Source: Thermococcus aggregans (GTDB lineage: Archaea > Methanobacteriota_B > Thermococci > Thermococcales > Thermococcaceae). Taken from it: 64,000 bases of DNA. Under the pieces are notes generated by a model. The model was not told the origin of the DNA, did not search any database, and saw nothing but the letters and a program-made list of their open reading frames with translations. Both the position numbers and the translations under genes were made by a program. Location of the stretch: contig NZ_CP099582.1 of assembly GCF_024022995.1 (NCBI RefSeq), forward strand, positions 1,054,001-1,118,000. Direction: 5' to 3'. Positions within the stretch are counted from its first letter, which is position 1. Each line of letters begins with the position of its first letter. Shown here one piece after another: positions 13,847-61,889 of this stretch.

Positions 13847-13889
13847 CGGCTTGAAAGGAAGAAAAACAAATTTGAGGTTAAGAGGAAGC

Positions 13890-13940
13890 TCAGCTAGTCG
13901 GTCCTTTCATCATTCTATCAGCGACGGGTTTGGTCATCAC
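13890..13940 (-). ncRNA. C/D box guide sRNA overlapping the hisS 3' end
   Basis: Read on the minus strand: box C GTGATGA (13934-13940), 12-nt guide, D' CTGA (13918-13921), 4-nt spacer, C' ATGATGA (13907-13913), 13-nt guide, D CTGA (13890-13893). All four boxes match consensus. The D guide complements 11 bases of the window's 23S (60328-60338), and the D' guide complements 10 (61803-61812). By the N+5 rule the predicted 2'-O-methyl sites are U60331 and G61806. Box C contains the hisS stop codon. Confidence 0.88.
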
Positions 13941-15241
13941 AGCATCTTTTTCACTTCTTCCACGACATTCTCTATGGGAACCTTCGTCTGTTCTCCGCTT
14001 TCCATGTTCCTTATCGTAACTTTTCCTTCAGCGAGATCTCTCTTTCCGAGGATTATAACGACTTTTACTTCTATGCTGTTGGCGTAGTTAAGTGCCTTGC
14101 TCAATTTTCTTCCCTGAAGATCGTACTCTGCTTTGATCTTTGCTTTTCTCAACATCTGAGTTACTTCTATTGCCTTTTTCTTTATTTCGAGGTCATCCCC
14201 TATGTAAGCAACAAACACATCGCTGCCGACTTTAAATTCCGGTAAAAGACCCTTGCTCTCAAGTATTGGGATTAATCTCTCTATGCCAATTGCAAAGCCC
14301 GTTGCAGGTGTGGGCTTTCCACCGAAGACCTCAATCAACTTATCGTACCTTCCTCCGCCGCCTATTGAGCCAATGCCAAGCTCATTGGGGGCAATCGCTT
14401 CGAAGACTATGCTCGTATAGTAGTCAAACCCTCTGGCTATTCCAAAGTCTATCAGTGCGTAGTCCTCAACGCCATAAGCTTTTAGCAGTTCAAAAAGTTC
14501 TTCAATCGTTTTCAGCTCTTCTCTTGCGGTCTCACTTTCAAAAAGCTCATAGGCTTTTGGTAGAACATCATCGGGCTTACCCTTCAGTTCTATTAAAGCA
14601 AAGACTTTCTCTATTCCCTCCTCACTAAGTCCAAAGTTTTTAAGGCTCTCTATAAATTCCTCTCGCGTTATCTTGTCCTTCTTATCGATAAGTCTCATAA
14701 GTCCAACATCGTCTTTCACACCGAGCATTTTTGCAAATTCGTCCAAAAGGACTCTATCTCCTATGTTAACTGTGAACTCCTTCAAGCCGGTGTTGAGGTA
14801 GCTTTCTATAAAAAGAGCGATGACTTCAGCATCTGCTTCTATGTTTTGCGATCCAATGAGCTCAACTCCCGCCTGCCAGAACTCCCTTAGCCTTCCGCTC
14901 TGTGGCTCTTCGTAGCGGAACATGTTTGCTATGTAATACCACCTTATTGGTTTTGGAGCATTTTGAAAAGAGTTCACAAAAAGTCTTGCAACGCTTGAAG
15001 TTAAATCTGGCCTAAGGGCGATGTATCTTCCTCCTTTGTCTTCAAAAGCGTATAACTGTTCAACGACTTCTTCCCCACTCCTCAGCTCAAAGAGCTTCGT
15101 GTACTCAAAGGTTGGCGTCAGTATTTCCTTGAATCCATAAATCTCAAAAACTTCTCTTATTTTCTCAAATACGTATCTTCTTTTCACCATATCCTCGGGA
15201 AGTAAATCTCTCGTCCCTTTAACACGCTGGATTCTATCCAT
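13937..15241 (-). CDS. hisS: Histidyl-tRNA synthetase
   Basis: A 434-aa class II synthetase charging tRNA-His. Motif 1 region is LPEDMVKRRYVFEKI. Motif 2 is RYEEPQSGRLREFWQAG. The HisRS-specific blocks are RGFDYYTSIVFEA and GGGRYDKLIEVFGG, and motif 3 is GFAIGIERL. A C-terminal anticodon-binding domain follows (about residues 330-434). ATG 15241 (MDRIQRVKG) is preferred because GGTGAG lies just upstream. An in-frame GTG at 15250 sits inside that site. The stop codon lies within box C of a guide sRNA. Confidence 0.95.
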   Translation of the reverse strand: MDRIQRVKGTRDLLPEDMVKRRYVFEKIREVFEIYGFKEILTPTFEYTKLFELRSGEEVVEQLYAFEDKGGRYIALRPDLTSSVARLFVNSFQNAPKPIRWYYIANMFRYEEPQSGRLREFWQAGVELIGSQNIEADAEVIALFIESYLNTGLKEFTVNIGDRVLLDEFAKMLGVKDDVGLMRLIDKKDKITREEFIESLKNFGLSEEGIEKVFALIELKGKPDDVLPKAYELFESETAREELKTIEELFELLKAYGVEDYALIDFGIARGFDYYTSIVFEAIAPNELGIGSIGGGGRYDKLIEVFGGKPTPATGFAIGIERLIPILESKGLLPEFKVGSDVFVAYIGDDLEIKKKAIEVTQMLRKAKIKAEYDLQGRKLSKALNYANSIEVKVVIILGKRDLAEGKVTIRNMESGEQTKVPIENVVEEVKKML

Positions 15242-15275
15242 CTCTCTCACCTACCAATTAAGGATAGAGGGGAAG

Positions 15276-19340: not shown

Positions 19341-19407
19341 CACAAATCACCTCCATGTTTTATTATACGCTTGTTATTAAAAAACTTTTCGGAAAAAGAA
19401 GGAGGAA

Positions 19408-19460
19408 TCAGCGAAGCGAAGAGTCCTCATCGTCCCCTCGGGTGTCCTCGGCCTCATCAT
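19408..19460 (-). ncRNA. C/D box guide sRNA downstream of DUF2666
   Basis: Minus strand: box C ATGATGA (19454-19460), 12-nt guide, D' variant CCGA, GGGG spacer, C' variant ACGATGA, 15-nt guide, D CTGA (19408-19411). Total 53 nt, as usual for archaeal C/D sRNAs. The D guide contains TCTTCGCTTC, which complements 23S 61016-61025. The N+5 rule predicts methylation of G61019. Box C begins 12 bases after the DUF2666 stop, so the RNA may be processed from that 3' end. Confidence 0.75.
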
Positions 19461-19472
19461 CTTCAAATTTCT

Positions 19473-34910: not shown

Positions 34911-35123
34911 TGTACCACCTTCATTTGATCAATTAACTTCGAGCTGGTTATAAACTTAATCTTTTAAATACTATTGGGACAGCTTTGACTCTACTTTTTC
35001 CTTTGAAAGCCTTATCTTTAAGGACGGAAAGGATATCAGCCGTGGGAGTCATCAGATTTTTGTTTATTTTTGACCGTTAGTGGCTTGTATGTTGACCACT
35101 CTATTATTAATTGGTGATGTGTA

Positions 35124-35234
35124 ATGTTTAGCTTTGAGAGTTTGAGAAGGTTTTGGGAGAAGGAGAGGAAGCCTGAAGTTCAGAGAGAGTGCGCGAGATA
35201 CGAGGCAACAAACTTCCAGAAAATTGTACTCTGA
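35124..35234 (+). CDS. Possible 36-aa protein or gene remnant
   Basis: ATG 35124 with GGTGAT seven bases upstream opens MFSFESLRRFWEKERKPEVQ and continues to a stop at 35232. Charged and helical, no family recognised. It could be the first codons of a lost larger gene, because the flanks look degraded and AT-rich. Confidence 0.3.
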   Translation: MFSFESLRRFWEKERKPEVQRECARYEATNFQKIVL

Positions 35235-35359
35235 AAATAACGTTCACTTTAGCCGTAATTGGGGTCTCTTGACTTTACCTTTTCCTTTTCGATTTCCTTT
35301 CGAACGATCTGAAAATTTTAATCTGCCGTTTTTGTTGTATGAAAAAACATAGATAGAGA

Positions 35360-35412
35360 TCAGACAGGAATCCGGTCATCATCTTGCCCTCAGGATCGGA
35401 AGCGCTCATCAC
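35360..35412 (-). ncRNA. C/D box guide sRNA in the herA-amylase gap
   Basis: Minus strand: box C GTGATGA (35406-35412), 12-nt guide, D' CTGA, 7-nt spacer, C' ATGATGA, 12-nt guide, D CTGA (35360-35363). All boxes match consensus. The D guide complements CAGGAATCCG of the window's 23S (61260-61269); the N+5 rule points to G61263. A leftward TATA-like ATTTTAAAA near 35437-35446 fits a start just before box C. No good target is seen for the D' guide. Confidence 0.82.
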
Positions 35413-35475
35413 TTCTTTTTAATATTCGCCCTGATTTTTTTAAAATTTTCCAAAAACTATTTTAGCCCCAAGTAT

Positions 35476-35495: not shown

Positions 35496-36740
35496 ATGCG
35501 AGCTGAGAACTTGAGAAAGCTCGTTATATATGAAGTCTTTCCTAGGAACCACACGGAAGAGGGAACTTTAAAGGCACTGGCAGAGGATTTGGAAAGAATT
35601 AAATCCCTTGGTGTGGACTTCATTTGGCTAATGCCAATATATCCTATCGGGGAAGAAGGCAGAAAAGGTTCTCTTGGGTCTCCCTATGCCATAAAGGATT
35701 ATAGGGCTATAAATCCTGAGCTGGGCACTTTTGAGGATTTTAAAGAATTGGTAGAAAAAGCCCACAGGCTTGGACTCCGCGTTATGATAGACATTGTGTA
35801 CAATCACACTTCACGGGACTCAAAGCTTCTAAGGGAGCATCCTGAGTGGTTTTACACCGTTGAAGGAAAGCCTTCGAGAAAAGTTCCAGACTGGAGCGAC
35901 GTCTACGATCTTGACTACTCGAATAGGGAACTGTGGGACTATCAGATAGAAACTCTGAAGTTCTGGGCTAAGTACGTAGATGGATTTAGGTGTGATGTTG
36001 CTCCTCTTGTACCACTGGAATTCTGGGAAAAAGCCAGGGAAGAAGTTTCTAAGGTTAATCCCAATCTCGTATGGTTGGCCGAAACCGTGCATCCTTCATT
36101 CCTTAAGTGGATGCGGGAGAGAGGATTTAGAGCCCATTCAGATGTTGAAATGCATCGGGTATTTGATATCACCTACGACTACGATGGAAGGGAAATACTG
36201 GAAAGATACCTGCAGGGGGAGAGTAACTTATCAACTTACATTGGCTACCTCTACGTTCAGGACACGCTGTATCCGGAGGATTACGTTAAGCTTAGATTTT
36301 TGGAGAATCATGATTTGCCTAGAGCGGCTGAAATATTTAGGGACGAATTTCGCCTAAAGAACTGGACGGCATTCATGTTTATGCTCAAAGGGGCAACGTT
36401 GATATATGCGGGGCAGGAGTATGCCATTAAAAAGCAGCCAAATCTCTTTGAAAAAGACCCTATTCCTTGGGAAGAAGGAGACGAATCCTTTTTGGCTTTT
36501 ATTAAGAGGCTAATCGAAATTAAAAAGTCCCTCGATTGCAACACCCAAAAAGTGTACTTGGCAAAGGACGGAATCGCAGTTGTAAAATGCAAAAATGCCG
36601 TGGGAATTTTCAATCTGGAAGGCAAAATTGGAGAAATAAATATTGACGTTAAGGGGAGGGATCTTTTGAGCGGCAGAAAAGTTGAAAGTAAAGCAGGAAA
36701 GCTGGAAGCCTCTTTTGAGCCAATGATAATCTCCCTTTAA
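35496..36740 (+). CDS. GH13 alpha-amylase family glycosidase
   Basis: 414 aa, no signal peptide, so a cytoplasmic alpha-glucan or maltooligosaccharide enzyme. The (beta/alpha)8 regions are visible: DIVYNHTS (region I), GFRCDVAPLVP with the nucleophile Asp (II), WLAETVH with the acid Glu (III), and FLENHDLPR (IV). The short C-terminus suggests a small beta domain. ATG 35496 follows GGTGAT; an earlier in-frame TTG lies within the operator. Exact substrate specificity cannot be read. Confidence 0.88.
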   Translation: MRAENLRKLVIYEVFPRNHTEEGTLKALAEDLERIKSLGVDFIWLMPIYPIGEEGRKGSLGSPYAIKDYRAINPELGTFEDFKELVEKAHRLGLRVMIDIVYNHTSRDSKLLREHPEWFYTVEGKPSRKVPDWSDVYDLDYSNRELWDYQIETLKFWAKYVDGFRCDVAPLVPLEFWEKAREEVSKVNPNLVWLAETVHPSFLKWMRERGFRAHSDVEMHRVFDITYDYDGREILERYLQGESNLSTYIGYLYVQDTLYPEDYVKLRFLENHDLPRAAEIFRDEFRLKNWTAFMFMLKGATLIYAGQEYAIKKQPNLFEKDPIPWEEGDESFLAFIKRLIEIKKSLDCNTQKVYLAKDGIAVVKCKNAVGIFNLEGKIGEINIDVKGRDLLSGRKVESKAGKLEASFEPMIISL

Positions 36741-56879: not shown

Positions 56880-57000
56880 GGAGCGCCCGAACAGGGCGCA
56901 ACGAAACCCGAGCGCCAAGACGGCGGCGTCGGGGGGACAGGGTGCAAAGCACCCATGATGAACCCCGCCCTCCAGCTCGGGTCACAACAATGTGCGCTCC
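56880..57000 (+). ncRNA. Structured GC-rich leader RNA with H/ACA-like features
   Basis: GGAGCGC (56880-56886) pairs with GCGCTCC (56994-57000). Inside, ACCCGAGC (56906-56913) pairs with GCTCGGGT (56975-56982), followed one base later by ACA (56984-56986). The upper part has GGGG/CCCC, an ATGATGAA internal loop that could form a kink turn, and GGGTGC-AAA-GCACCC. That order (stem, pocket, upper stem with K-turn, ACA) is the archaeal H/ACA layout. SRP RNA and RNase P RNA signatures are absent. Confidence 0.4.

Positions 57001-58865: not shown

Positions 58866-61889
<3,024 letters not shown>

Follow-up and report, generated by a model that had tools for sequence, protein, structure and literature searches.

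An sR5 orthologue upstream of herA in Thermococcus aggregans with two predicted methylation targets in 23S rRNA

Between herA and a divergently oriented alpha-amylase-type gene (35496-36740, plus strand) of Thermococcus aggregans lies a short stretch bearing the four boxes of a guide RNA, and the locus raises the question of what this RNA is and what each of its two guides addresses. The first-pass annotation of the window (the whole stretch of 64,000 nt analyzed here) proposed a box C/D sRNA with a D guide directed at 23S rRNA and a D′ guide without an evident rRNA target. The first part of this proposal was right, and the RNA belongs to a known Rfam family, sR5; the second part was wrong, as detailed below. 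With a probability of roughly 0.93, we read the locus as an orthologue of the Pyrococcus/Thermococcus sR5, a box C/D sRNA that appears to have its own promoter and has two predicted Gm sites in 23S rRNA (61263 and 61230).

The sRNA spanned 35360..35412 on the minus strand from C box to D box, as assigned by Rfam RF01304, alignment, and orthologues. Read from 35412 to 35360, the sequence was GTGATGA-GCGCTTCCGATC-CTGA-GGGCAAG-ATGATGA-CCGGATTCCTGT-CTGA. Specifically, the C box GTGATGA (35406..35412) was followed by the 12-nt D′ guide GCGCTTCCGATC (35394..35405), the D′ box CTGA (35390..35393), the C′ box ATGATGA (35376..35382), the 12-nt D guide CCGGATTCCTGT (35364..35375), and the D box CTGA (35360..35363), all on the minus strand and as described in the first pass. 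The boxes conformed to the RUGAUGA (C/C′) and CUGA (D/D′) motifs of archaeal box C/D sRNAs. With relaxed spacing, the four-box architecture occurred at two places in the window versus none in 60 windows simulated under a first-order Markov model of the window. The covariance model of RF01304 matched over its full length (1-53) with a score of 50.6 bits (E 1.2e-8), the cut-off being 40. The secondary structure of the lone RNA was unremarkable (z 0.58), which is expected because C/D sRNAs fold with protein. Positions 35360-35412 are therefore an ordinary gene of an already catalogued RNA family and no new find.

The D guide paired with TCAGGAATCCGC at 61260..61269 of the plus strand through 10 Watson-Crick pairs (−17.3 kcal/mol), so that the earlier assignment of these 10 bases of 23S, with a predicted Gm at 61263, was borne out. 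This nucleotide is position 2401 of the 23S and aligned to A2309 of E. coli; the target aligned to about 2306-2315 of the E. coli 23S, a region that we take to be helix 84 in domain V. Against all rRNA, the match alone is not significant, being equaled by 22 of 150 shuffled guides. Its significance comes instead from the conservation of both guide and site: the site was unchanged in 30/30 rRNA loci examined, and the guide core CGGATTCCT was identical in the aligned sR5 copies from all six genera (g1-g6). The D guide and 23S target common to RF01304 were thus both found here, with core and target identical.

The D′ guide formed 11 consecutive pairs, including two G-U pairs, with 61227..61237 of the plus strand. 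At −18.4 kcal/mol, the stability of this duplex equaled the level of the D duplex, and position 5 of both guides, which have the length of about 12 nt typical of such RNAs, was Watson-Crick paired in T. aggregans. The predicted Gm is 61230, position 2368 of the 23S and aligned to E. coli G2276. A match this good to the whole rRNA was not rare in itself, being reached by 25 of 150 shuffles. A distance of 33 nt separates this site from the D site, and a match within 100 nt of the latter was reached by just 12 of 2000 shuffled guides. Both targets (61227-61237 and 61260-61269) were thus located within 100 nt of each other in one rRNA, the arrangement of a double guide, and the second guide very probably has a 23S target near that of the first, as judged from complementarity and distance and, more strongly, from the comparison of genera.

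The D′ guides differed by genus, being GCGCTTCCGATC in g1, GCGCCATCGATG in most g2 genomes, GCACTCTCGAAC in g3, and GTGCCCTTGATC in most g6 genomes. The rRNA strands matching them included TATCGGGGGCGC, TATCGGAGGCGC, TATCGAGGGTGC, and TATCAGGGGCGC, and nearly all guides paired in one register with their own rRNA. In this fixed register, pairing was better than that of shuffled guides in 10 of 12 guide/target combinations (p ~0.00005-0.0016), all 10 belonging to g1, g2, g3, and g6. Across ten distinct guide-target rows, a set that leaves out the guides of G032 (13 nt) and G016 (11 nt), 90% of cells were paired versus 36-52% in slid registers, and one of 500 letter shuffles reached the observed pairing or covariation score. 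Only two pairs had changed on both sides, and variation of the target strand is driven partly by constraints of the rRNA helix. The predicted methylation pair itself changed across genera from C-G to U-A or U-G, with U-A in place of C-G in g6. The guides of g2 left a mismatch at position 6-7 of the duplex or, in G032, gave an apparent bulge (p 0.025). In g5 (G016), the D guide was kept and the D′ guide gave no pairing at the homologous site (score 5, p 0.30). The predicted D′ pairing with homologous rRNA is therefore kept in four genera, with compensating changes, and g5 is the exception. We regard it as an even bet that the D′ guide tracks lineage-specific changes in a 23S helix strand (around E. 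coli 2276) while the D guide stays fixed, and that the D′ guide of one genus lost its function or was redirected. If so, sR5 would illustrate guide-target co-evolution cleanly, on a small scale, inside a known family, and the frozen D guide set against the drifting D′ guide could offer a modest test of the pairing that a guide needs.

Upstream of the sRNA, a TATA-like element, TTTTAAAA, was located on the minus strand at 35438..35445 (35445-35438 as read), with its center about 29 nt from the C box, confirming that the RNA has such an element of its own. By eye, most relatives had a similar A/T-rich element about 25-45 nt upstream of sR5. The gene downstream (34910-33177, minus strand) was named herA in the first pass, which fits the adjacent mre11/rad50-like reading frames. 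In g1, g3, and g6, sR5 preceded a co-oriented herA, with a gap of about 65-90 nt in relatives and about 450 nt in the window and the sister genome G001. Inside this extra DNA was a repeat of about 230 bp (35049-35276), which left sR5 untouched, recurred as four partial copies elsewhere in the genome, and was common at the herA site only to G001 among the relatives compared. Since sR5 and a herA-proximal TATA-like element, AAGTTTATAACC, are intact on both sides of the insert, independent transcription is favored, and sR5 appears to have its own promoter, independent of herA.

Several further features of this region were observed. The repeat contained an ATG and an ORF of 36 codons (35124-35234, plus strand), perhaps the truncated 5′ end of a gene, and 20-nt direct repeats were present at 34985-35004 and 35269-35288. 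A further C/D half-motif, within the extra DNA before herA (minus strand CTGATGACTCCCACGGCTGA, near 35035-35055) was rejected, as it was not kept in G001. In most g3 genomes (loci L021, L023, L025, L026, and L027), the C box of sR5 was immediately preceded by a palindrome, GGGGTGGCCACCCC with the core GGGTGGCCACCC, perhaps serving as an operator or as a terminal stem; the other genera were without it.

Three other readings were weighed. In one, only the D guide would be functional, and the D′ complementarity would be due to chance or would help placement, in the manner of a chaperone, without methylation. The G-U pairs in T. aggregans, the mismatch in g2, and the failure in g5 agree with this, as does the insignificance of the D′ match against whole rRNA. 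We nevertheless consider it unlikely, given how seldom shuffled guides matched so near the D target, and given that differing guides pair with one and the same site in four genera while the predicted methylation pair changes from C-G to U-A or U-G. The D′ guide could alternatively be directed at a tRNA or another RNA, tRNAs being targets of some archaeal C/D sRNAs (PMC7994747), and the first-pass annotation had suggested a tRNA target or an orphan guide, and a search of the guide complement against all tRNAs and rRNAs of the genome. Neither suggestion found support: the guide pairs with 23S at a distance of 33 nt from the D target, genomic 11-mer complements of the D′ guide with at most one mismatch overlapped no tRNA, and the three tRNAs of the window paired poorly with it. 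We give a target outside rRNA very little credence.

Similarly far-fetched, in our estimation, is a cis element in the herA leader (a k-turn, bound by L7Ae) rather than a free sRNA. The co-oriented position ahead of herA in three genera would suit such an element, and T. kodakarensis has k-turn leaders that may be regulatory (PMC4247193). Yet both guides match rRNA, a TATA-like element intervenes between sR5 and herA, roughly 350 bp of extra DNA separates the two with sR5 intact, and in G018 (genus g2) sR5 is far from the nearest herA homologue. A free guide RNA with two predicted 23S targets thus remains the preferred reading.

The sR5 model scored over its cut-off in 28 of the 61 genomes searched, all 28 of them Thermococcaceae, and all six Thermococcaceae genera sampled had orthologues in which the D guide core was the same. 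A few other archaea gave weak matches to the model near E 5e-4, while a DNA pattern scan of genomes returned mostly Thermococcus MAGs and one chance bacterial match. Loss of the boxes within conserved flanks, which the first pass had named as telling against an sRNA, was looked for, and the boxes were kept in close relatives with a syntenic herA locus. Three genomes of g1 that are at least 95% complete (G009, G010, and G012) were without sR5 and also without an orthologous HerA, which looks like absence of the locus as opposed to box decay inside conserved flanks. Several g1 genomes lack sR5, and the predicted marks would therefore be dispensable in that clade. The best HerA match in these three genomes was 48-49% identical to the HerA of the window, which suggests replacement of the herA locus in the clade. 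G005 was likewise without sR5, and at the threshold applied HerA found no match there. In the genomes without sR5, sequences closely resembling the D guide were examined, and none had the four-box layout. Finally, a MAG (G006, 79% complete) had herA with a different upstream sequence at a contig end, which may reflect a rearrangement or an assembly effect.

In archaeal box C/D sRNAs, L7Ae binds the C/D and C′/D′ motifs, Nop5 and fibrillarin assemble, and 2′-O-methylation falls on the rRNA base that pairs with the fifth guide nucleotide upstream of the D or D′ box. The genome has fibrillarin and Nop5-type genes next to each other, as well as genes of the L7Ae family; the guide particle can therefore be made. 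We infer that sR5 would be transcribed and loaded with L7Ae, Nop5, and fibrillarin, upon which the D guide would present G61263 and the D′ guide G61230, both in domain V of 23S, for 2′-O-methylation. The predicted sites are 33 nt apart, and one particle could therefore hold both segments. On present sequence evidence, the best reading of sR5 is a box C/D sRNA of the ordinary 'double guide' kind.

Other guide RNAs were noted in the window. A second box C/D sRNA (13888-13944, minus strand) was sR14-like, at 25.1 bits versus an Rfam cut-off of 38, and had matching sequence in relatives. Its C box overlapped the area of the stop codon in a histidyl-tRNA-synthetase-like gene (13937-15250, minus strand), its D′ guide paired over 10 bp with 23S 61803-61812 (predicted Gm 61806), and its D guide paired with 23S 60327-60338 (predicted Um 60331). 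Additionally, two known guide RNAs were present: sR45 (C/D) at 19406-19464 (minus strand) and Pab19 (H/ACA) at 56883-56986 (plus strand), just before the 16S gene.

Apart from the D′ target, the result is a routine annotation of a catalogued family; with it, a supposed orphan guide is removed and two testable predicted Gm sites are placed in domain V of 23S. We presume that sR5 was among the sRNAs detected in P. abyssi. For Pyrococcus, 46 sRNAs have been reported, and Northern blots verified them in P. abyssi (Gaspin et al. 2000, as reviewed in PMC7994747). Double guides, with targets within 100 nt and G-U pairs allowed, accounted for 262 of 489 archaeal sRNAs (PMC4644070), and the T. aggregans RNA resembles them in having two predicted rRNA targets separated by less than 100 nt and in tolerating G-U pairs. 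With snoPyro_CD (RF00095) and sR12 (RF01147), it shares the general box C/D layout but falls below their cut-offs (at 35360-35412, 32.5 bits versus 45 and 22.8 bits versus 38, respectively). With sR5 of Pyrococcus (RF01304), in contrast, it shares the boxes, the D guide core, and the D target, and differs in a D′-C′ spacer that is 4 nt longer and in its D′ guide, which is GCGCTTCCGATC where most g2 genomes have GCGCCATCGATG.
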